Assembly (NCBI RefSeq): GCF_004349065.1
Contig: NZ_SMKZ01000057.1
Span: 1-41,586 of the forward strand
Direction: 5' to 3'
Source: Jiangella asiatica
GTDB lineage: Bacteria; Actinomycetota; Actinomycetes; Jiangellales; Jiangellaceae
Length of the DNA: 41,586 nucleotides
Part shown: piece after piece, positions 17,776 to 27,970 of the stretch
How the letters are laid out: the number at the start of each line of letters is the position of its first letter
Position numbering within the stretch: the stretch's first letter is position 1
The notes under the pieces: generated by a model
The model's input: only the letters and a program-made list of their open reading frames with translations
Databases searched by the model: none
What the model was told of the DNA's origin: nothing
Program-made: the position numbers and the translations under genes

Positions 17776-18921
17776 TCAGCTGATGGTCGAGCGCATCAGC
17801 GTCACGTTGTACGGCGCCCACTGCGTCATGGCGAAGTAGAGGTCCGGGCCGCTGGACCACGGGTGCATGAACCCGCCGTAGAGCGCCGGGTACTCAGTGC
17901 CGCTGACGATCACCTGCTCCTCGCTCCACGGGCCGGTCGGCCGCGGCGCGTCGCGCAGCACGATGGCGGCGCGCGACTCGTCGAGGTACGTCATCAGCCA
18001 GCGCCCGGCGTACCCGTTGTACTGCACCGACAGCTCGCCGACGGGTCCGGTCGCCACCGGCGCGGCGGCGGCCTCGTCGCGGGACCAGCCCGAGCCGTCC
18101 CAGTACCGGTAGGCCTCCTTGTCCAGAACCCGCGAGGCCGGGACCCGGGCCAGGTGCGCGTCGCCGAACCGGCCGTTGGGCGTGCCGAACATGTAGACGT
18201 GTCCGCCGTGCCGGGCGAACGCTGCCAGCTGGAACTTGTTGCTCCACTCCGGGGTGTTCGTCCAGACCGCGTCCGGGTCCTTCGTCCACGTCTCGCCGTT
18301 GTCGTCGGAGTATGCGATGCCCGAGTGGTTGGTGAACCATTGGCCGGGCGGGCCCCAGTGGTTGACCGACATGTAGTGGATGTAGCTGCGGCCGTGCACC
18401 GTGACACCCGCCGTCGGGATGACGGTCTCCTCGTCGTTGTTGACCTGCTTGCAGTCGAGCAGTTGCTTCGCGTGCCCCGGCCGGTCCTGGACCATCGTGT
18501 CGAACGTCATGCCGTCGGCGAGGTCGGTGTCGGACGAGCGGGCCAGCACGTTGCAGCGCCAGTCCGCCTCGCGCGGCCCGGCACCGTTGCCGCCCCAGCC
18601 CTCGCCGTACGTGTCGCCGAAGGCCATGAGGACCTCGCCGGCGCCGTTGTCCCAGATGATGCCGAGGTCGGTGCCGTGGACCTGGTAGCTGGCGGCGGTC
18701 TCGTTGATGGACCCGGCGCCGGTGAGCCGGGCCACCGGCACCGCCGGCCCGACCGTCACGCCGGGCGCCGGCTCGGAGCCCGCTGCTGCTGACGAAGCCG
18801 TTGCCGGGTGCGACGACGACGGCGTCGGCTCACCGTCCGCCGTGGGCGCCCCGCCGGCGACGGACGACACCGTCAGCAGTAGAGCGCCGGCTCCGGCGGT
18901 GACGAGCAGCTGGACTCTCAT
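17776..18921 (-). CDS. Secreted DUF4185 beta-propeller protein (GH183-like, candidate endo-D-arabinanase)
   Basis: A 381-residue exported protein. The ATG at 18921 is chosen for AAGGAGG 5 bases upstream; a signal peptide covers about residues 1-28, followed by a Ser/Thr/Pro/Ala-rich linker to about 60. The rest is the DUF4185 five-bladed propeller, with FGDTYGEGWGGNG, SGIAYSDDNGETWTKD, QLAAFARHGGHVYMFGTPNGR and a blade-like PTGPWSEEQ segment. DUF4185 contains the GH183 endo-D-arabinanases, but not all members have that activity. A perfect LacI-type operator lies 39 bases upstream, and a GH172 gene is in the same regulon. The stop TGA lies in a TGATCACG context. Confidence 0.85.
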   Translation of the reverse strand: MRVQLLVTAGAGALLLTVSSVAGGAPTADGEPTPSSSHPATASSAAAGSEPAPGVTVGPAVPVARLTGAGSINETAASYQVHGTDLGIIWDNGAGEVLMAFGDTYGEGWGGNGAGPREADWRCNVLARSSDTDLADGMTFDTMVQDRPGHAKQLLDCKQVNNDEETVIPTAGVTVHGRSYIHYMSVNHWGPPGQWFTNHSGIAYSDDNGETWTKDPDAVWTNTPEWSNKFQLAAFARHGGHVYMFGTPNGRFGDAHLARVPASRVLDKEAYRYWDGSGWSRDEAAAAPVATGPVGELSVQYNGYAGRWLMTYLDESRAAIVLRDAPRPTGPWSEEQVIVSGTEYPALYGGFMHPWSSGPDLYFAMTQWAPYNVTLMRSTIS

Positions 18922-18959
18922 GCGGGCCTCCTTCGACGACGGCGTCGCCAAGGCATCTG

Positions 18960-18973
18960 AGAAATCGATTTCT
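18960..18973. promoter_or_regulatory. LacI-type operator 1 (perfect palindrome)
   Basis: AGAAATCGATTTCT, a perfect 14-base palindrome 39 bases before the DUF4185 start. Close variants occur before the LacI gene, the ABC operon and the isomerase-kinase operon. Confidence 0.8.
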
Positions 18974-19083
18974 AACCTCGAGTCAAGAGCGTAGAGTGCC
19001 CGAACGCCGGGAGTCAACGGCCCGCCCGGTCATGGGGCAGGGCTCGGTCGCGCCAGCACGGCATCGGCTTGGTCAGGAGCATT

Positions 19084-19156
19084 ACCAGGACTTCTCGCGC
19101 GTTACGAGGCTCGCAAGCATGGTGCGACACGAGATTTCGTGCTGAACGTGATCATT
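19084..19156. repeat. Dispersed palindromic repeat, copy A
   Basis: Positions 19113-19156 are identical over 44 bases to 41526-41569, and the preceding 29 bases are similar. It contains the hairpin CACGA-GATT-TCGTG and ends in CGTGATCATT, which overlaps the 3' end of the LacI gene: its stop TGA (19152-19154 region) lies inside TGATCACG on the minus strand. Confidence 0.9.
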
Positions 19157-20165
19157 CCCCAGTGGAGATGCGGCGGGTGGAGCTGGCGCGGACCTGGAGC
19201 TCGGTGGGCAGCAAGACGTTGGTGGCGTCGGCGTCGGGCTTCGTGATGCGCCGGGCGAGCAGCTGGGCCGCCTGCCGGCCGACCTCGTAGGCGGGCTGGG
19301 AGACAGTGGTCAGGGTGGGCCGGATCAGGTCGGCCCAGGGAATGGTGTCGAAGCCGACGACGGCGATGTCCGTGGGCACCGCGAGGTCGCGCTGGACGAG
19401 GCACTCCATCGCGCCGACCGTCATCAGGTTGTTGGCGGCGAACAGGGCGTCGGGCTCGGCGCCGTCGTCGAGGAGGGAGGCCATCGCGTCGTAGCCGCCG
19501 CGCTCGCGGAAGTCGGCGAAGCGGACCAGTGACGGTTCCAGCGAGAGCCCGGCCGTGCCCAACGCGCGCCGGTAGCCGTCGTAGCGGTGGGTGGCGGTGC
19601 TGAGCCAGCGGGGTCCGCCGATGCACGCGATGCGGCGGTACCCCTGGTCGATGAGGTGCGCGGTAGCCTGCTCGGCGCCGCGCTCGTTGTCGACGAGGAC
19701 GGTGTCGGTGCGCAGGCCGTGCAGCTCGCGGTCGATGACGACGACGGGGCAGCCGGAGTCGAGCAGCAGCTTGACGTCGTCGACTCGGTTGGAGGACGGG
19801 GAGATGATGACGCCGGCCATCTGCTCGGTGAGCGCGGCGACGATGTAGTTGGACTCCTTCTCGGGGTTCTCGTCGCTGTTGCAGAGCACCACGGAGTACC
19901 CGGCAGCCAGCGCGATGTCCTCGACGCCGCGGACCATGGAGGTGAAGAAGGGGTTCTCCACGTCGGAGATGATGACTGCCCAGAGGCTGGTGCGGCTCTT
20001 GCGCAGGTTGCGGGCGACGGCGTTGCGGCGGTAGCCGAGCTCGGCGACCGAGCTGGTGACGCGCTCGGCGAGCGCGGGGTCGACCTTGGCGTGCCCGTTG
20101 AGGACGCGCGACACCGTCGCCGCCGAGACGCCCGCGTGGCGCGCGACGTCGTAGATGGTGACCAC
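19152..20165 (-). CDS. LacI-family transcriptional regulator of the sugar island
   Basis: A 337-residue regulator with the LacI HTH at residues 2-50 (TIYDVARHAGVSAATVSRVL, then ELGYRRNAVARNL) and a periplasmic-binding-protein-like sensor domain (ENPFFTSMVRGVE, GVIISPSS, GFDTIPWADLIRPTLTTV). It lies between its likely targets and carries one of the four ATCGAT-centred operators 55 bases upstream, so autoregulation is likely. The effector is presumably a sugar or sugar phosphate made by the pathway. Confidence 0.95.
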   Translation of the reverse strand: MVTIYDVARHAGVSAATVSRVLNGHAKVDPALAERVTSSVAELGYRRNAVARNLRKSRTSLWAVIISDVENPFFTSMVRGVEDIALAAGYSVVLCNSDENPEKESNYIVAALTEQMAGVIISPSSNRVDDVKLLLDSGCPVVVIDRELHGLRTDTVLVDNERGAEQATAHLIDQGYRRIACIGGPRWLSTATHRYDGYRRALGTAGLSLEPSLVRFADFRERGGYDAMASLLDDGAEPDALFAANNLMTVGAMECLVQRDLAVPTDIAVVGFDTIPWADLIRPTLTTVSQPAYEVGRQAAQLLARRITKPDADATNVLLPTELQVRASSTRRISTGE

Positions 20166-20219
20166 CCCGTGCCCCTCTCATGCCCCGTCGACATCAGCGG
20201 CGCCATCTTAGTCGACCGC

Positions 20220-20233
20220 GGGAATCGATTTCT
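20220..20233. promoter_or_regulatory. LacI-type operator 2
   Basis: GGGAATCGATTTCT matches the palindrome of operator 1 at 12 of 14 positions and lies upstream of the LacI gene. Confidence 0.65.
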
Positions 20234-20275
20234 CGTTAGTTTCCCGCCAGGCGCTGACCCCGACCGATCACGCTT

Positions 20276-20458
20276 CTACCCGTAGTACACCTCCAACTCC
20301 GCGATGGACGTGAAGCGCGCCGATCCACCCGGGCGCCCGATGACGCGCACGTCGTCGCCCCAGGTCTCGTCGAAGGTCATCGTGAAGGTCCGGAACGCTC
20401 CCGCTGGGTAGACCGCACGGCGCCGGACTCCCGCTGATGGCTCCGCAGCACGGTCCAT
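20276..20458 (-). pseudogene. C-terminal remnant of a discoidin-like (F5/8 type C) domain
   Basis: An open frame of 60 codons directly after the GH172 gene. Its last 39 residues (FRTFTMTFDETWGDDVRVIG then GSARFTSIAELEVYYG) read like the end of a carbohydrate-binding discoidin domain, whereas the first 20 residues are arginine-rich and unrelated. The rest of the domain is missing. It is most likely the residue of a deleted secreted glycosidase or lectin gene; a small functional gene is less likely. Confidence 0.5.
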
Positions 20459-20462
20459 GACG

Positions 20463-21560
<1,098 letters not shown>

Positions 21561-21615
21561 GGTCGCTTCTCCTTCGTGTGCTTCTCTGCGGAACGGTGTT
21601 TCATCGGGCCAGGTG

Positions 21616-22503
21616 TCACTTCAGGCCCGAGGTCTTGATCGACTCCACGATCCTGCGCTGGAAGATGGCGAACGCCAGGAGGGTCGGCACAGCCGCGACC
21701 GTGGCGGCGGCCAGGACGTACTGCCAGTCGGTGGTGTTCTGGTCCTGGAAACTGACGATGCCCAGCTGCACCACCTGCAGGTCCGTGTCCGTCGTCGCGA
21801 CGAGTGGCCACAGGAACGCGTTCCAGTTGGCCAGGAAGAACAGCACGGCGAGGGCGGCGAAGATGGACCGGCTCAGCGGCACGATGATCGACCAGTAGAT
21901 GCGCCAGTACCCGCAGCCGTCGAGCACCGCGGCCTCCTCCAGCTCAGCCGGGATGGCCAGGTAGAACTGCCTGAGCAGGAAGATGCCGAAGGCGCTGAAG
22001 ATGGCCGGCAGAATCAGGCCGGCGTAGCTGTTCAGCAGCCCCAGCCGGTGCACAACCAGGAAGAGCGGCACGAGCACCACCGGCGCGGTGACCAGCAGCG
22101 TCGAGAAGATCCCCATGAAGATCGCGTCGCGGCCGGGAAACCTCAGCCGGGCCAGGGCGTAGGCGGCCATCGAGTGGAAGAACAGCGCGACCACGGTCAC
22201 CGTCACCGACACGATGAAGCTGTTGAGCAGGTACCGGCCGAACGGCGCGGCGGAGAAGACGTACTCGAAGTTGTCGACGGTGGGCGCCGACGGCAGCAGG
22301 TCCGTGCTGAGCACCTCGTCGGCGCCCTTGAACGAGCTGGTCACCATCCACACCAGCGGGAACACCGTCAGAATGGTGATGACGCCCACCACGACCAAGA
22401 GCGTGGAGGCCTTGCGGCGTCGCCATGACCTGCGCCGCCGGGCGGACGGTGCGGGTGTGGCCGACGGGGCCTGGCGGGGGATGGCCGCGGTGTCACTGGG
22501 CAT
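21616..22503 (-). CDS. Carbohydrate ABC transporter permease (MalG type)
   Basis: A 295-residue inner-membrane permease with six predicted spans. The EAA loop that contacts the ATPase reads EEAAVLDGCGYWRIYWSIIV (about residues 195-214). The start overlaps the upstream permease by 11 bases. With the MalF-type partner and binding protein it forms a CUT1-type importer for oligosaccharides. Confidence 0.94.
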   Translation of the reverse strand: MPSDTAAIPRQAPSATPAPSARRRRSWRRRKASTLLVVVGVITILTVFPLVWMVTSSFKGADEVLSTDLLPSAPTVDNFEYVFSAAPFGRYLLNSFIVSVTVTVVALFFHSMAAYALARLRFPGRDAIFMGIFSTLLVTAPVVLVPLFLVVHRLGLLNSYAGLILPAIFSAFGIFLLRQFYLAIPAELEEAAVLDGCGYWRIYWSIIVPLSRSIFAALAVLFFLANWNAFLWPLVATTDTDLQVVQLGIVSFQDQNTTDWQYVLAAATVAAVPTLLAFAIFQRRIVESIKTSGLK

Positions 22504-23467
22504 GGGTGAATCGGCCTCCCTTGGTGAGGGCGAACAGCAGTGCCGACCAGGCCAGCAGGATCACCACGAGGAACGACCCGATGGCCGCGGCATAGCCGAA
22601 CTCTCCGTACACGAACGCCTGCTGGTACACGTAGTAGATGACCAGCGTGGTCGAGTTGGCCGGACCACCGCCCGTCAGGATCACCAGCAGGTCCAGGCCG
22701 CCGGTCATCACCGCGATCGTCGAGGTCAGCAGGATGAAGAAGCTGGTCGGCTTCAGCAGCGGCCAGGTGATGTTGCGGAACGTGGTCCACGGCCCGGCGC
22801 CGTCGATGCTCGCCACCTCGTAGTACTCGCGCGGGATGTCCTGGAGGCCGGCCAGGAAGATCAGCATGTAGTAGCCCATGGAGAACCAGATCGTGATGAC
22901 CATGACCGTGGGCAGTGCGAACGCCGGGTCGCCCAGCCAGGAGGGCGCGGTGAGCCCGACACGGTCGAGCAGGCGGGCGATGAAGCCGACGTCGTCGGTC
23001 AGCAGGAACTGCCAGATCAGTGCCACGACGACGAGGCTGACGACGTTGGGCGCGAACAGCGCGGTACGGAACAGCCCCACCAGCGGGAACTTGTTCCGAA
23101 CCAGCAGTGCCAGGCCGAGACCGGACAGGAACAGGCCCGGCACCATCACCAGCAGGTACAGCAACGTGCGGCCGAGGCTGGACAGGAAGTACGGGTCGGC
23201 GAACATGCGCTCGAAGTTGGCGAACCCGACGAAGTCGTAGCCGCCGAACCCGTCGACGCGGAAGAAGGCCAGCACGATGGAGAGCAGCATCGGGATCGCG
23301 ACGAAGATCGTCAGCCCGATGAGGTTGGGCGCCATGAACAGATAGGCGGCGCGGCGTTCGCGGCGGGCCCGGGCCGAGCGGGCGCCGCCGGTCGGTCCGG
23401 CGTCGGTGGCGCGTGGCGCACCGGGGCGGCTCGCGGGCTCCGTGGCGCTGGTGGTGGGCGTGCTCAT
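22493..23467 (-). CDS. Carbohydrate ABC transporter permease (MalF type)
   Basis: A 324-residue permease with an extended basic N terminus (about 36 residues), six predicted spans and the EAA-like loop EYYEVASIDGAGPWTTFRNI. Its ATG overlaps the binding-protein stop (ATGA). No ATPase gene is in the window; actinobacterial CUT1 importers commonly share one MsiK-like ATPase encoded elsewhere. Confidence 0.94.
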   Translation of the reverse strand: MSTPTTSATEPASRPGAPRATDAGPTGGARSARARRERRAAYLFMAPNLIGLTIFVAIPMLLSIVLAFFRVDGFGGYDFVGFANFERMFADPYFLSSLGRTLLYLLVMVPGLFLSGLGLALLVRNKFPLVGLFRTALFAPNVVSLVVVALIWQFLLTDDVGFIARLLDRVGLTAPSWLGDPAFALPTVMVITIWFSMGYYMLIFLAGLQDIPREYYEVASIDGAGPWTTFRNITWPLLKPTSFFILLTSTIAVMTGGLDLLVILTGGGPANSTTLVIYYVYQQAFVYGEFGYAAAIGSFLVVILLAWSALLFALTKGGRFTHAQ

Positions 23468-24825
23468 GCCAGGTCCACCCCCTCGTAGGTGGTGAGGTAG
23501 GCGTCAATCGCCTGGGCCGCGGTGGCCGCCTGGTCCTCGGGGTCGCCGCCGGCGAGCTGGCACGACTGGATGGCGTCGGACACCGCCTTGTAGATGACCG
23601 GCGGGTACCGCGGCTCGCCGCGGCCGGTGGGGAAGATCTCGTCGCGGAACATCCGCATGTGCTCGCTGTCGTAGCCGCCGGCCTGGCTGCCGTACTCCAG
23701 GCTGGACCGGCGCGGTGAGATGTCGCGCTTGGAGTCGATGCACCAGTTGGCCACCCGGGCGATGCCGTCGTCGTCCATCGAGCCGAGCGCCCAGGCGCAG
23801 AAGCGGGCCGCCTCGTCGGGGTTGCTGCCCAGCGCGTTGGCGGCGAAGGCCCAGCCACCGAGGACCGTGGCGGACTCCCCGCCGTCGGGAACGGGCAGCG
23901 GGATGACCCCGTAGTCGAAGTCCGGTGCCTTGCGCTCGAAGTCCTGGATCGACCAGATGCCGGACTGCCAGATCGACGCGTAGCCCTCGGAGAAGGAGAT
24001 GACGATGTCGTTGGACGCCGGTGGCACGCGCGGGGTCAGGCCCAGATCGACGCCGTCCTTCCACAGCCGCAGCGCGTCGACGGCGCCGGCCGAGTCGAAG
24101 GCGCTGCGCGCGCCACTGTCGACGACGACCTCGCCGCCGCCCTGCCACATCCACGGGTACCAGACGAAGTTCTGGTAGTAGTCCTGCGCGGTCGGGAACA
24201 CCAGTCCGCCCTGACCCGCCGCGACGAGCCGGTCGGAGACGGAGAGCAGGTCCTCCCAGGTGGCCGGGAGATCGCCCTCGGACAGGCCGGCCTGCTCGAA
24301 CGCCGGGCGGCTGTAGAAGAGCGCGAGCGGCTCGATCTCCATGGGCAGCGCGTAGACGCGGTCGCCGATCATGCGCGTGGCCAGGTTGTCGGCGAAGAAG
24401 TCGTCCACCGCCTCCTGCGTCATGTGCGGCGTGAGCTCCGCCAGGACGTCCCCGTTGAGGTAGCGGGCGATGTCGCCGGGACTGATGAGGAAGATGTCGG
24501 GACCCTCGCCCGCGGAGAACGCGGTGGCCAGCTTCTCGCTGCCGAGCACGGGCGCGTAGACCAGCTCGATCTGCTGGTCGTTCTCGGCGTTCCAGAGGTC
24601 GACGGTGTCCTGCATCCAGGCCGCCCGAGCCATGGTGGCGGGATCCTCGTTCGGCGCCGGTGCGTAGAAGTTCCAGAACTGCAGCGGACGCGACGACGCC
24701 GACGCGTCACCGCATCCGCTCAACACGCTGGGGAGTGCGACGGCGCCGGTCAGCGCGGCGGAGAGACCAAGGAAGTGGCGACGGGACGGGTGCCCGCCGG
24801 GGGACGACAAGGGCGGAGGTGGCAT
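23464..24825 (-). CDS. Extracellular sugar-binding lipoprotein of ABC importer
   Basis: A 453-residue solute-binding protein. From the ATG at 24825 it has a twin-arginine signal (SRRHFLGLS, Arg15-Arg16) ending in a lipobox LSGC (Cys38), so it is probably a Tat-exported lipoprotein. The mature part has the type 1 extracellular solute-binding pattern (FSAGEGPDIFLISPGDIARYL, then DRVYALPMEIEPLALFYSR and GGWAFAANALGSNPDEAARF). An in-frame GTG two codons upstream is possible, but AGAGGA is best spaced for the ATG. A LacI-type operator lies 16 bases upstream. Confidence 0.92.
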   Translation of the reverse strand: MPPPPLSSPGGHPSRRHFLGLSAALTGAVALPSVLSGCGDASASSRPLQFWNFYAPAPNEDPATMARAAWMQDTVDLWNAENDQQIELVYAPVLGSEKLATAFSAGEGPDIFLISPGDIARYLNGDVLAELTPHMTQEAVDDFFADNLATRMIGDRVYALPMEIEPLALFYSRPAFEQAGLSEGDLPATWEDLLSVSDRLVAAGQGGLVFPTAQDYYQNFVWYPWMWQGGGEVVVDSGARSAFDSAGAVDALRLWKDGVDLGLTPRVPPASNDIVISFSEGYASIWQSGIWSIQDFERKAPDFDYGVIPLPVPDGGESATVLGGWAFAANALGSNPDEAARFCAWALGSMDDDGIARVANWCIDSKRDISPRRSSLEYGSQAGGYDSEHMRMFRDEIFPTGRGEPRYPPVIYKAVSDAIQSCQLAGGDPEDQAATAAQAIDAYLTTYEGVDLA

Positions 24826-24840
24826 GGCCACAGTCCTCTC

Positions 24841-24854
24841 AGCAATCGATTACT
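24841..24854. promoter_or_regulatory. LacI-type operator 3 (ABC operon)
   Basis: AGCAATCGATTACT matches operator 1 at 12 of 14 positions and lies just upstream of the binding-protein gene, within the divergent intergenic region. Confidence 0.65.
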
Positions 24855-24991
24855 TGCCGTGGCGCCGAGGTTAACCAGGTGTAACGCCGAGGTCAACACT
24901 CCAGACAGGACGAATGCCGAAATCGCAGGAAACCGGCGGTAGGTCGGGAGGGCTCGTCGTTGACATCGCAGCAGGCCTCACCTAGCGTGTG

Positions 24992-25017
24992 AGCAATCGA
25001 TTTCTAGATCGATTCCT
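24992..25017. promoter_or_regulatory. LacI-type operator 4 (double site, isomerase operon)
   Basis: AGCAATCGATTTCT (13 of 14 to operator 1) is followed by a second ATCGAT centre 12 bases later (CTAGATCGATTCCT, 10 of 14). The pair lies 66-91 bases before the isomerase start. A TAGCGT hexamer at 24983 just upstream could be the -10 element, which would place the repressor on the transcription start. Confidence 0.7.
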
Positions 25018-25082
25018 GGATCAACCGAGAACGTTGTGGCGCGGGTAGCGCAGAGTGAGCGAGACGATGGGAGTGGGACACC

Positions 25083-26492
25083 GTGGCGCGTATCGGTGTG
25101 TTGACGATCTCCGATGGCCGGGACTTCGTGCACAGGGACATCGCGGACTGGGCGCGGTCGTCGGAGGACGCCATCGTCGCCGCCCTGGAAGGGGCCGGCC
25201 ACGAGGTGGTCCGGGCACCTGAGCTGGTGTCGACCAACGAGCTCGCCAGCAGCCAGGCGCGGCTGGTCGCGCAGGAGCGGCCGGACCTGACCGTCTTCAA
25301 CTACTCCGTCTGGGCGTTCCCGCACTTCTCGATGCTGGCCGCCGACGCGACACCGGGGCCGCTGGTGCTGCTGTCCAACATCGACCCGGTGCAGCCGGGC
25401 ATGGTGGGCATGCTGGCAGCCGGCGGCGCGCTGGACCAGATCGGCCGGGTGCACGGCCGCGTCTGGGGCGACGTCGCCGACCCGGCCACGCTGGAGCGCC
25501 TGCTCGTGCACGTGCGCGCGGCGCAGGCAGTCGGCGGGCTGCGCGGCAGCACGTTCGGCCGGTTCGGCGGCCGCCCGATGGGCATGTACACCGCCGTCGC
25601 CAACGCCGACCAGTGGCTGTCGACGTTCGGCGTCGACGTCGAGGAGATCGACCAGTGGGAGATCGTGCGCCGGTCGGAGCTGGTGCCGGACTCGCGCGCG
25701 AAGGCCGGCCGGGAGTGGCTGGAGAAGCACGCCAACGTCCACTACGACGGCAAGCAGCTCACCCCGGAGCTGCTGGAGCGGCAGATCCGCTCCTACCACG
25801 CGGTGCGCGAGCTGATCGACGAGTGGAACCTCGACTTCTCCGGCATCAAGGGCCAGCCGGAGCTGACCACGCACTTCACCACCATGGACGTCACCGAGGC
25901 GTTCCTCAACGACCCCTATGACTGGGAGGGCCCGAAGCCGACCCATGTCACCGCGACTGAGTCGGACATGGATGCCGCGCTGACCATGCAGATCCTGAAG
26001 CTGATCTCCGGCGACCCGGTCCTGTTCGCCGACGTCCGGCACTACCACGCCGACCGCGATATCTGGGACATGGCCAACTCCGGCCAGCACGCCACCTGGT
26101 ACGCCGCCCGCAGCGACGACCCGGCGGAGAACCTGCGCCGCGTGCACCTCTACCCGGAGGTGTTCTTCTTCCCTGCCGGCGGCGCGTCCGTCCACCACAT
26201 CGCGGCGCCGGGCGACATGACGCTGGCCAGGCTGACGCGGCTCAGCGGCCGGTACCGCATGCAGGTCGTGCGCGGCGCGTTCGAGGACTACGGCGACGAG
26301 GTCAACGAGACGCTGGCACGCCAGTCCACCTTCGAGTGGCCGCACGCGTTCACCCGCATGGAGGTCCCGGCCGACGAGTTCCTGTCCCGCTTCGGCGCCA
26401 ACCACATCCACGCCGTCCCGGGCGACTACGTGGCCGAGCTGGAGCAGGTCTGCCGCATGCTCGACGTCGACTTCGAGCCGCTGGGCAGCTGA
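25083..26492 (+). CDS. FucI-fold aldose/ketose isomerase (candidate D-arabinose isomerase)
   Basis: A 469-residue cytoplasmic enzyme of the L-fucose/L-arabinose isomerase superfamily. The Mn-binding residues expected from E. coli FucI are recognisable: Glu293 in THVTATESD, Asp317 in VLFADVRHY (spaced 24 residues as in FucI), and a histidine in NHIHAVPGD near 441-443. It is shorter than E. coli FucI (591). FucI-type enzymes convert both L-fucose to L-fuculose and D-arabinose to D-ribulose. The next gene is a sugar kinase, overlapping by one base; no fuculose-phosphate aldolase is present. The GTG start has GGGAG/GGGA upstream. Confidence 0.85.
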   Translation: MARIGVLTISDGRDFVHRDIADWARSSEDAIVAALEGAGHEVVRAPELVSTNELASSQARLVAQERPDLTVFNYSVWAFPHFSMLAADATPGPLVLLSNIDPVQPGMVGMLAAGGALDQIGRVHGRVWGDVADPATLERLLVHVRAAQAVGGLRGSTFGRFGGRPMGMYTAVANADQWLSTFGVDVEEIDQWEIVRRSELVPDSRAKAGREWLEKHANVHYDGKQLTPELLERQIRSYHAVRELIDEWNLDFSGIKGQPELTTHFTTMDVTEAFLNDPYDWEGPKPTHVTATESDMDAALTMQILKLISGDPVLFADVRHYHADRDIWDMANSGQHATWYAARSDDPAENLRRVHLYPEVFFFPAGGASVHHIAAPGDMTLARLTRLSGRYRMQVVRGAFEDYGDEVNETLARQSTFEWPHAFTRMEVPADEFLSRFGANHIHAVPGDYVAELEQVCRMLDVDFEPLGS

Positions 26493-27970
26493 TGGACGAT
26501 CTCGTCCTCGGGATCGACATCGGGACGGCGAGCAGCAAGGGAGTGCTGGCCACCGTCGACGGTGAGATCGTGGCCGTCGAGGTGGTCGAGCACGAGACGG
26601 CACGGCCGCGGCCGGGGTGGGTGGAGCACGACGCCGACGGTGTGTGGTGGTCGGACGTGTGCGAGCTCAGCCGCCGGCTGACCGGTGCGGCCGACGCGGG
26701 CCGCGTCCAGGCGGTCTGCGTGAGCGGTATCGGACCGACGGTGCTGCCCGCCGGCGCGGACGGGACGCCGCTGCGCCCGGCCATCCTCTACGGCGTCGAC
26801 ACCCGGGCCGTGGGGGAGGCCGCGGAGCTGACGGAGCGCCTGGGCGCCGACGCGGTGCTGGAGCGCTGCGGGTCGCGGCTGTCGTCGCAGTCGGCCGGGC
26901 CGAAGCTGGCGTGGCTGCGCCGGCACGAGCACGAGGTGTGGGCACGCACCCGCTACTTCTTCATGGCCAACGGGTACGTCGTGTACCGGCTGACCGGCCA
27001 GTACGTGCTCGATCACCATTCCGCGAACCAGGCGCAGCCGCTGTACGACCGGCACCGCGGCGAGTGGATCGAGGAGTGGGCCGCTGTCGTCGCTCCCGGG
27101 CTGGCGCTGCCGCGGCTGCTGTGGCCGGCCGAGATCGCCGGGACGGTGACGGCGGACGCCGCGGCCGCGACTGGCCTGCGGGCCGGCACGCCGGTCGCCG
27201 TCGGGACCATCGACGCCTGGGCCGAGGCCGAGAGCGTCGACGTCCGCCGGCCTGGCGACCTCATGATCATGTACGGCTCGACCATGTTCTTCATCGCGGT
27301 CACCTCGTCGCCGGTCGCGGACGCCAACCTCTGGGGCACGGTCGGGCAGCATCCGGGCCTGCACACGCTGGCCGGCGGGATGGCCAGCTCGGGCTCGATC
27401 ACCGGCTGGTTCCGGTCACTGACCGGTGACCGGCCCTACGAGTCGCTGGTCGCCGACGCCGCCGCGGTGGGCGCTGGTGCGGACGGCCTCCTGGCGCTGC
27501 CGTACTTCGACGGCGAGCGAACCCCGTTCGCCGACCCCGACGCCCGCGGCGTCATCGCCGGGCTGACTCTGCGGCACGGGCCGGGCCATGTCTACCGGGC
27601 GCTGCTGGAGGCGACGGCGTTCGGCGTGCGGCACAATCTGGAGGCGTTCGCGGCCGCGGGCGTCACGCCGTCACGCGTGGTCGCGGTCGGCGGCGGGACC
27701 AAGGGTGACCTGTGGACCCGGATCGTGAGCGGCGTCGCCGTGGTCGACCAGGAGGTGCCCACGGTCACCGTCGGCGCGGCCTACGGCGACGCCAAGCTGG
27801 CCGCCGTCGCCGTCGGGGCCGCTGACCGCGACGCGAGGTGGAGCGGCGGCGGAGTCACCGTGGCGCCGGACCCCGCCGACGCCGCCGTCTACGAGAAGCT
27901 CTACCCCCTGTACCGGAGCCTGCACGAGCGCACCAGCGACCTCCAGCACGCGCTGGCCGGCGGGGCGTAG
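26492..27970 (+). CDS. FGGY-family carbohydrate kinase (candidate D-ribulokinase)
   Basis: A 492-residue kinase that would phosphorylate the ketose made by the preceding isomerase. The N-terminal phosphate motif LGIDIGTASSKGVL, the VGTIDAWAEAESV segment with the catalytic aspartate (about residue 243) and the C-terminal VVAVGGGTKGDLWTRIVSG adenosine motif are intact. Its ATG overlaps the isomerase stop (TGATG). Xylulokinase-, fuculokinase- and ribulokinase-type FGGY enzymes cannot be told apart by eye; D-ribulose is suggested by context. Confidence 0.9.
   Translation: MDDLVLGIDIGTASSKGVLATVDGEIVAVEVVEHETARPRPGWVEHDADGVWWSDVCELSRRLTGAADAGRVQAVCVSGIGPTVLPAGADGTPLRPAILYGVDTRAVGEAAELTERLGADAVLERCGSRLSSQSAGPKLAWLRRHEHEVWARTRYFFMANGYVVYRLTGQYVLDHHSANQAQPLYDRHRGEWIEEWAAVVAPGLALPRLLWPAEIAGTVTADAAAATGLRAGTPVAVGTIDAWAEAESVDVRRPGDLMIMYGSTMFFIAVTSSPVADANLWGTVGQHPGLHTLAGGMASSGSITGWFRSLTGDRPYESLVADAAAVGAGADGLLALPYFDGERTPFADPDARGVIAGLTLRHGPGHVYRALLEATAFGVRHNLEAFAAAGVTPSRVVAVGGGTKGDLWTRIVSGVAVVDQEVPTVTVGAAYGDAKLAAVAVGAADRDARWSGGGVTVAPDPADAAVYEKLYPLYRSLHERTSDLQHALAGGA

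Follow-up and report, generated by a model that had tools for sequence, protein, structure and literature searches.

A predicted two-arm D-arabinan catabolic regulon with shared LacI-type operators in Jiangella asiatica

We analyzed a 41,586-nucleotide stretch of DNA from the soil actinomycete Jiangella asiatica (the window), which is contig C87 of a 7.03 Mb genome and carries at 17776-27970 a gene island with a predicted role in D-arabinan catabolism. The minus strand of the island encodes a GH183 protein, a LacI-family regulator, a GH172 protein, two CUT1 permeases and a binding protein, and the plus strand an isomerase and a kinase. An earlier note, made from the letters of the sequence alone, had listed these genes, and in Pfam scans every gene it named was found at or near the place it gave. 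Numbers preceded by G, C and L denote genomes, contigs and loci, respectively. The features of the island are the following:

17776..18921, minus strand: candidate secreted GH183 (DUF4185) endo-D-arabinanase, 381 residues (Pfam match of 424 bits; homology to EndoMA1)
18960..18973, no strand: operator upstream of the GH183 gene, AGAAATCGATTTCT (pattern match)
19152..20165, minus strand: LacI-family regulator, probably autoregulated (Pfam LacI and Peripla_BP_3; helix-turn-helix GVSAATVSRVLNG)
20220..20233, no strand: operator upstream of lacI, GGGAATCGATTTCT (missed by the stricter pattern RGMAATCGATTDCY)
20279..20404, minus strand: relic of a second, divergent DUF4185 gene, of which the final 42 codons are left (homology to full-length genes of relatives)
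20463..21560, minus strand: candidate GH172 (DUF2961) exo-alpha-D-arabinofuranosidase (Pfam DUF2961 domain, 308 bits; homology to ExoMA1)
21616..22503, minus strand: CUT1 permease, MalG/UgpE type (profile matches)
22493..23467, minus strand: CUT1 permease, MalF/UgpA type (profile matches)
23464..24825, minus strand: CUT1 solute-binding protein of a putative importer for arabino-oligosaccharides (SBP_bac_1, SBP_bac_8)
24841..24854, no strand: operator upstream of the unit encoding the binding protein, both permeases and GH172, AGCAATCGATTACT (pattern match)
24992..25005, no strand: operator upstream of the isomerase-kinase unit, AGCAATCGATTTCT (pattern match)
25083..26492, plus strand: short FucI-fold isomerase, 469 residues, probable D-arabinose isomerase (Fucose_iso N1, N2 and C domains)
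26492..27970, plus strand: FGGY kinase, XylB-like, possible D-ribulokinase (FGGY profiles; below every NCBIfam cut-off matched)

The open reading frame (ORF) of the binding protein was scanned as 23464-24831 (minus strand) and probably starts at 24825, and that of the kinase was scanned as 26336-27970 and probably starts at 26492. The five closest relatives of the GH172 protein come from Jiangella species (82-84% identity).

GH183, whose N-terminus shows a signal-like hydrophobic stretch by eye, aligns with EndoMA1 (8hhv) with 52% identity over 319 residues, and its match to PF13810 (DUF4185) covers positions 2-309 of 309. In EndoMA1, Asp33 is the nucleophile, Asp51 the acid/base and Glu243 an essential residue (Shimokawa et al. 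2023, PMC10509167). The alignment places D85, D103 and E296 of GH183 at these positions, and the five EndoMA1 ligand-contact residues W138, P141, R198, L292 and Y293 are all kept, as W189, P192, R251, L347 and Y348. GH183 is shorter than EndoMA1 (381 versus 488 residues) and has no counterpart of its C-terminal putative carbohydrate-binding module (CBM) domain. The GH172 protein, in which no signal peptide was seen by eye, is 63% identical to ExoMA1 (8ic8) over 339 aligned residues. It carries E228 and E250, presumably the two catalytic residues by the positions of those of alphaFFase1, and both columns hold Glu in 80 out of 80 related loci. Specificity for arabinofuranose over fructofuranose is determined in ExoMA1 by Asn253, whose place is taken by Gly299 in alphaFFase1 (PMC10509167). 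The window protein has Asn there (N258), and across the 80 related loci this column holds N in 67, C in 11, D in 2 and G in none. Such an Asn argues against a fructofuranosidase; by itself it would not prove an arabinan substrate, because many loci without arabinan partners share it. EndoMA1 and ExoMA1 have been assayed on mycobacterial lipoarabinomannan and arabinogalactan (PMC10509167). The close matches of the proteins encoded at 17776-18921 and 20463-21560 to their family profiles and to these D-arabinan-active enzymes, together with the kept active sites, strongly support the D-arabinan substrate that the earlier note had predicted.

The earlier note had also described a shared operator, and this operator is real. 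The window holds four copies of the core AATCGATT where 0.11 would be expected, and no shuffle out of 100 had as many; the four sites lie about 20-80 bp upstream of each of four likely transcription units. Genome-wide the core is present at 19 places. Eight of these have flanks that by eye are close to GAGMAATCGATTKCTC: besides the four window sites, contig C34 has two such sites and C32 and C36 have one each. The remaining eleven carry other flanks.

The two sites on C34 define what we regard as a second arm. One of them lies 30-odd bp upstream of a gene for a 1250-residue GH116 protein with a twin-arginine signal (MSRRSFIALSA), followed by a CobW-type gene (Pfam run on the G006 copy). The other directly precedes the genes for the ATPase, permease and binding protein of a CUT2 importer; beyond them lies the gene for a protein of 1068 residues (the large GH172), which starts with a signal-like stretch and contains a DUF2961 domain. 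The C34 GH116 matches ExoMA2 (8ic6) with 232 bits, and the equivalents of ExoMA2 Glu431, His446, Arg483 and Asp557, read off the alignment with a four-position offset between chain and paper numbering that was deduced from spacing, are identical. This makes it a candidate for the exo-beta-D-arabinofuranosidase that the window lacks: no GH116 match was found on the window contig, and of the three GH116 genes elsewhere in the genome the one on C34 is under the shared operator. That the window is only one arm of the regulon, without an exo-beta enzyme, had escaped the earlier note.

The strict pattern RGMAATCGATTDCY was run on 12 Jiangella genomes with the backward pattern as a control; all 12 gave matches and the control gave none. 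The 11 relatives have 45 distinct sites; a GH116, DUF4185 or DUF2961 gene is no more than 6 kb away from 40 of them (0.39 expected) and no more than 3 kb away from 20 (0.23 expected), counting GH116 at 200 bits or more, DUF4185 or DUF2961 above cut-off, and taking the expectation from genome coverage. All five genomes with a copy of this GH116 that is at least 85% identical have the core upstream of it, with an altered right flank in G004 and G009. The window isomerase was recovered at E 1e-60 in 17 of 216 sampled genomes of the class (12 of 12 Jiangella, three others of the family and two outside it), and 16 of the 17 genes have AATCGATT upstream. Footprinting across the genus thus supports the LacI regulon claimed in the earlier note.

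Gene order in more distant genomes links the two arms as well. In L168 (G043, from another family) one locus holds a large GH172, a CUT2 ATPase and permease, AATCGATT sites, the isomerase (70% identity) and GH116 (62%). In L167 (G128, also from another family) one locus holds CUT1 genes, a GH172 36% identical to that of the window, LacI, the isomerase (75%), a large GH172, CUT2 genes and AATCGATT sites. These joined loci support the assignment of the C34 genes to the same pathway independently of the operator. Thirteen Streptomyces loci (L051, L053-L064) all contain GH172, LacI, CUT1 genes and the kinase; their isomerase is of the close type (71-73%) in seven and a distant FucI-like protein (23-24%) in five, and was not found in L064, a short contig piece. 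Twelve of the thirteen have the AATCGATT core and L055 has a one-mismatch form.

The gene content, the homology of GH183 and GH172 to assayed enzymes, the active-site residues and the operators with their conservation can be read directly from the sequence. We put at roughly 0.8 the probability that Jiangella has a D-arabinan catabolic regulon in two arms, that the window holds its core arm and that the LacI protein of 19152-20165 represses it through GAGMAATCGATTKCTC-like operators. This LacI would repress both arms; its inducer, too, is a matter of prediction. In arm 1, secreted GH183 would cut mycobacterial-type D-arabinan, the CUT1 importer would take up the oligosaccharides and cytoplasmic GH172 would remove alpha-D-arabinofuranose; the isomerase and kinase would then convert D-arabinose to D-ribulose and D-ribulose to D-ribulose 5-phosphate. 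In arm 2, the GH116 with its Tat signal and the large GH172-domain protein with its signal peptide would trim outside the cell, and the monosaccharide so released would enter through the CUT2 importer and pass to the isomerase and kinase of arm 1. The substrates of both importers and of the two catabolic enzymes, and all of the arm-2 chemistry, are what we infer. We lean, with less assurance, towards the fuller picture in which one LacI runs import-then-trim (CUT1, cytoplasmic GH172) together with trim-then-import (exported GH116, large GH172, CUT2 for free D-arabinofuranose), with a short isomerase of the FucI clade, specialised for D-arabinose, serving both.

The alternative that survives best is that arm 2 is a separate system, for example for fructofuranosides, with its own LacI and an operator that is merely similar. 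A separate LacI gene does lie downstream in arm 2 (L153:4828-5856), and its helix-turn-helix GVSVITVSRVIN differs from GVSAATVSRVLNG of the window LacI. This comparison supports, without proving, which LacI binds the operators, as GVSxATVSRV helices occur widely among LacI-type proteins. Among solved structures the CUT2 binding protein matches 2x7x best (239.8 bits), far above the next ones; 2x7x is probably the fructose-binding sensor domain of BT1754, a label that a literature search did not confirm. Fructofuranose shares the D-arabino ring, and the match would fit D-arabinofuranose or fructose. In the large GH172 the position of ExoMA1 Asn253 is taken by Tyr, as read from its GTGSEDFYEGGWYFN motif, and since GH172 includes alpha-D-fructofuranosidases a fructan role for arm 2 is possible. 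These points weigh against a single regulon. On the other side, relatives keep AATCGATT upstream of the arm-2 units, the isomerase and arm-2 genes share one locus in L168 and in L167, and GH116 retains the residues named for beta-D-arabinofuranose recognition. We consider a separate arm 2 unlikely and the two-arm regulon the better account.

Another alternative concerns the sugar itself: the isomerase and kinase might handle L-fucose and L-fuculose (or another deoxysugar), with the hydrolases releasing something else. FucI enzymes act on L-fucose and D-arabinose alike, and the source annotation of several isomerase homologues reads L-fucose isomerase, that of others L-fucose/D-arabinose isomerase. 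The isomerase matches all three Pfam domains (Fucose_iso N1, N2 and C). In a 36.7-bit stretch of the alignments with solved L-fucose isomerases, E293 and D317 (24 residues apart) face identical amino acids, and H441 does so in a weak 5.4-bit stretch; these are presumably the Glu, Asp and His metal ligands of FucI-type isomerases. Compared with the FucI family (1fui, 3a9r), the window protein shares the three domains and the metal-site Glu and Asp, with the His in a weak stretch, and differs in length (469 versus 591-612 residues), only short stretches aligning (best 64 bits). The kinase is certainly an FGGY protein; it scores under all NCBIfam cut-offs, the best model being XylB (TIGR01312, 276.4 bits against a cut-off of 380.25), and against the L-fuculokinase model it reaches 76.5 bits where the cut-off is 470.9. 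The binding protein of the CUT1 importer finds its best solved match in 6rjy, an arabino-oligosaccharide-binding protein (77.6 bits), and its fourth and fifth in 4qrz and 7bvt, structures named for MIAR_33310 of Microbacterium (PMC10509167). An L-fucose locus is improbable given the 52% and 63% identities of the hydrolases to D-arabinan enzymes and the kinase scores; no aldolase or fucosidase family was present among the window genes scanned at 17776-27970 (a fuculose-type aldolase was not searched for elsewhere in the genome), and the isomerase adjoins GH116 and CUT2 genes in L168 and sits in the Streptomyces GH172 loci. We therefore keep the D-arabinose assignment, in which the isomerase is a probable D-arabinose isomerase and the kinase a possible D-ribulokinase. 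The idea that the system recycles arabinan made by the cell itself, a proposal known for mycobacteria, which carry DUF4185 genes (Al-Jourani et al. 2023, PMC10115798), can practically be set aside, as the Emb-type arabinosyltransferase family (PF04602) was found in none of the 12 Jiangella genomes (out of 14 control genomes the same search gave a hit in Corynebacterium glutamicum) and scavenging therefore fits better.

Several further observations weigh against the two-arm D-arabinan regulon. Two operator-like sites, on C32 and C36, adjoin genes without an evident arabinan link, and the strict pattern RGMAATCGATTDCY also catches two C51 sites of another flank type, GGCAATCGATTGCC. Among the relatives, five of the 45 sites are more than 6 kb from any gene of the three enzyme families. 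Two of these five belong to the divergently transcribed isomerase and binding-protein genes of G004, close to where a contig ends, another two stand ahead of CUT1 genes in G002, and for G007:C1:107330 no link is clear. In the opposite direction, no strict-pattern site lies within 6 kb of 24 of the 63 enzyme genes; one of these 24, the GH116 of G009, has a AATCGATT core with a different flank. Not all members of the GH116, DUF4185 and DUF2961 families therefore belong to the regulon. The joined loci L167 and L168 show no relative of the kinase and no GH183, and four of the 17 isomerase loci (L164, L165, L166 and L169) show no GH183, GH172 or GH116 in the stretch examined. A DUF4185 gene above cut-off exists somewhere in all eight genomes tested by way of loci like the thirteen Streptomyces ones (seven Streptomyces, one Actinocatenispora); eight of the nine stretches around these genes have no exact AATCGATT, and the ninth overlaps the GH172 locus itself, so the operator link stops short of those remote genes. 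GH172 proteins 57-68% identical to that of the window were found in many loci without arabinan partners. Finally, because the kinase meets no NCBIfam cut-off, 5- and 1-phosphorylation are both possible.

The outlying operator-like sites have neighbourhoods of their own. The C32 site (L020:9106, G000:C32:47105), which has regulon flanks, lies about 33 bp upstream of a gene for a CUT1 binding protein, followed by a permease and GH42; no such CUT1/GH42 neighbourhood was recognised among the operator sites of relatives. The C36 site (L019:7058, G000:C36:51057) is inside or near a 774-residue ORF that no Pfam family matches; a GH2 gene is adjacent, and third-position GC is lower in this region. Tandem AATCGATT cores with flanks GGCAATCGATTGCC at G000:C51:58298-58323 (L031, L032) and with flanks CGAATCGATTCG at G000:C39:48013-48034 (L029, L030) are perhaps operators of other LacI-type regulators. 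Another island, G000:C33:47785-99681, has three DUF2961 genes and three weak DUF4185-like genes, and none of the AATCGATT places falls inside it.

Relatives of the window GH172 at 57-68% identity also occur in Chloroflexota, Paenibacillus, other Bacillota and Armatimonadota (loci L065-L125), mostly without GH183, GH116 or isomerase in the stretch examined, and their substrate may differ. GH172 was rejected as a stand-alone marker, as most of these 61 loci, some of them stretches of only 3-5 kb, show no relative of GH183, GH116 or the isomerase by tblastn; the exceptions are L065, L082, L084, L088, L090 and L124, plus L072 under a wider query set. GH116 motifs were likewise rejected as a regulon marker: two other GH116 genes (C11, C31) keep ExoMA2-type motifs by eye and are not among the AATCGATT places. 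In L059:6492-8126, L058, L060, L062 and L063 the distant FucI-like protein stands in place of the isomerase next to the same kind of kinase. It was not retained as independent evidence on the substrate, since for the L059 copy no solved structure matched at E 0.001 and the Pfam scores stayed below cut-off.

Between GH172 and lacI the window holds a feature absent from the earlier note. The relic at 20279-20404 corresponds to the C-terminal 42 codons of a divergent DUF4185 gene, with 83% identity to residues 545-586 of L136:5690-7450 (E 7e-20) and 74% to L151:10908-12629. In these relatives the full-length gene, of 586 and 573 residues respectively, occupies the same place between GH172 and lacI; the L147 copy is cut by a contig end. 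DUF4185 scores of the two full-length proteins straddle the cut-off of 39.5 bits (39.1 and 38.9 in one run, 40.3 and 40.4 in another). Proteins 50-68% identical to this one are encoded in several Streptomyces and Actinocatenispora loci, and two Streptomyces copies examined gave no Pfam match at E 0.001. In a very divergent alignment, all six aligned members have Asp in both catalytic Asp columns and Gln in the Glu243 column.

D-arabinan is a polymer made by few bacteria, the one whose synthesis ethambutol blocks, and organisms that eat it are for this reason sources of tool enzymes for the analysis of mycobacterial walls. With a defined operator, further enzymes of this kind can be sought by pattern. 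In this genome the pattern pointed beyond the window, to the Tat-signal GH116, the large GH172-domain protein and a candidate importer of D-arabinofuranose on another contig, all of them out of reach for an analysis confined to the genes around the window. The divergent DUF4185 subfamily, a relic in the window and intact in relatives, and the short isomerase are concrete targets for assays.

By its gene content the locus is very probably a D-arabinan catabolic system of the published kind. Titles and abstract openings of the literature matches listed for D-arabinan hydrolases, D-arabinose and LacI, and Jiangella or Streptomyces included no paper that we recognised as describing the present regulon. 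The statement in the earlier note that a complete operon is little described proved wrong: Microbacterium arabinogalactanolyticum has a locus with GH183, GH172, GH116, an ATP-binding cassette (ABC) importer and a putative isomerase and kinase, with a proposed route to D-ribulose 5-phosphate, and its hydrolase and solute-binding protein genes are induced by D-arabinose (quantitative reverse transcription PCR) and also by mycobacterial wall extract (PMC10509167). The Microbacterium-type set of GH183, GH172, ABC importer, isomerase and kinase is present in full in the one window locus. The likeness extends to the signal-less GH172 as exo-alpha-enzyme, GH183 as endo-enzyme and an importer of the SBP_bac_8 type. 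The differences are that Microbacterium has four GH183 genes, and Jiangella one, without CBM, plus the relic of a second DUF4185 gene; that the Microbacterium GH116 has no signal sequence and lies in the same locus, whereas that of Jiangella has a Tat signal and lies on another contig; and that one importer is described in Microbacterium, whereas Jiangella has a CUT2 importer as well, together with a large GH172-domain protein that carries a signal peptide. Jiangella has a LacI with mapped operators, whereas the main text of PMC10509167 has no LacI, regulator, repressor or operator. The D-arabinan PUL42 of Dysgonomonas gadei (Al-Jourani et al. 2023, PMC10115798), for which the main text does not use the words LacI or regulator, is a polysaccharide utilization locus of Bacteroidota, whereas that of Jiangella is an actinobacterial locus with ABC importers. 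All functions being predicted, what is new here is the regulon with its shared operator, a second arm that combines a CUT2 importer with exported exo-enzymes, and the remnant of another DUF4185 gene.

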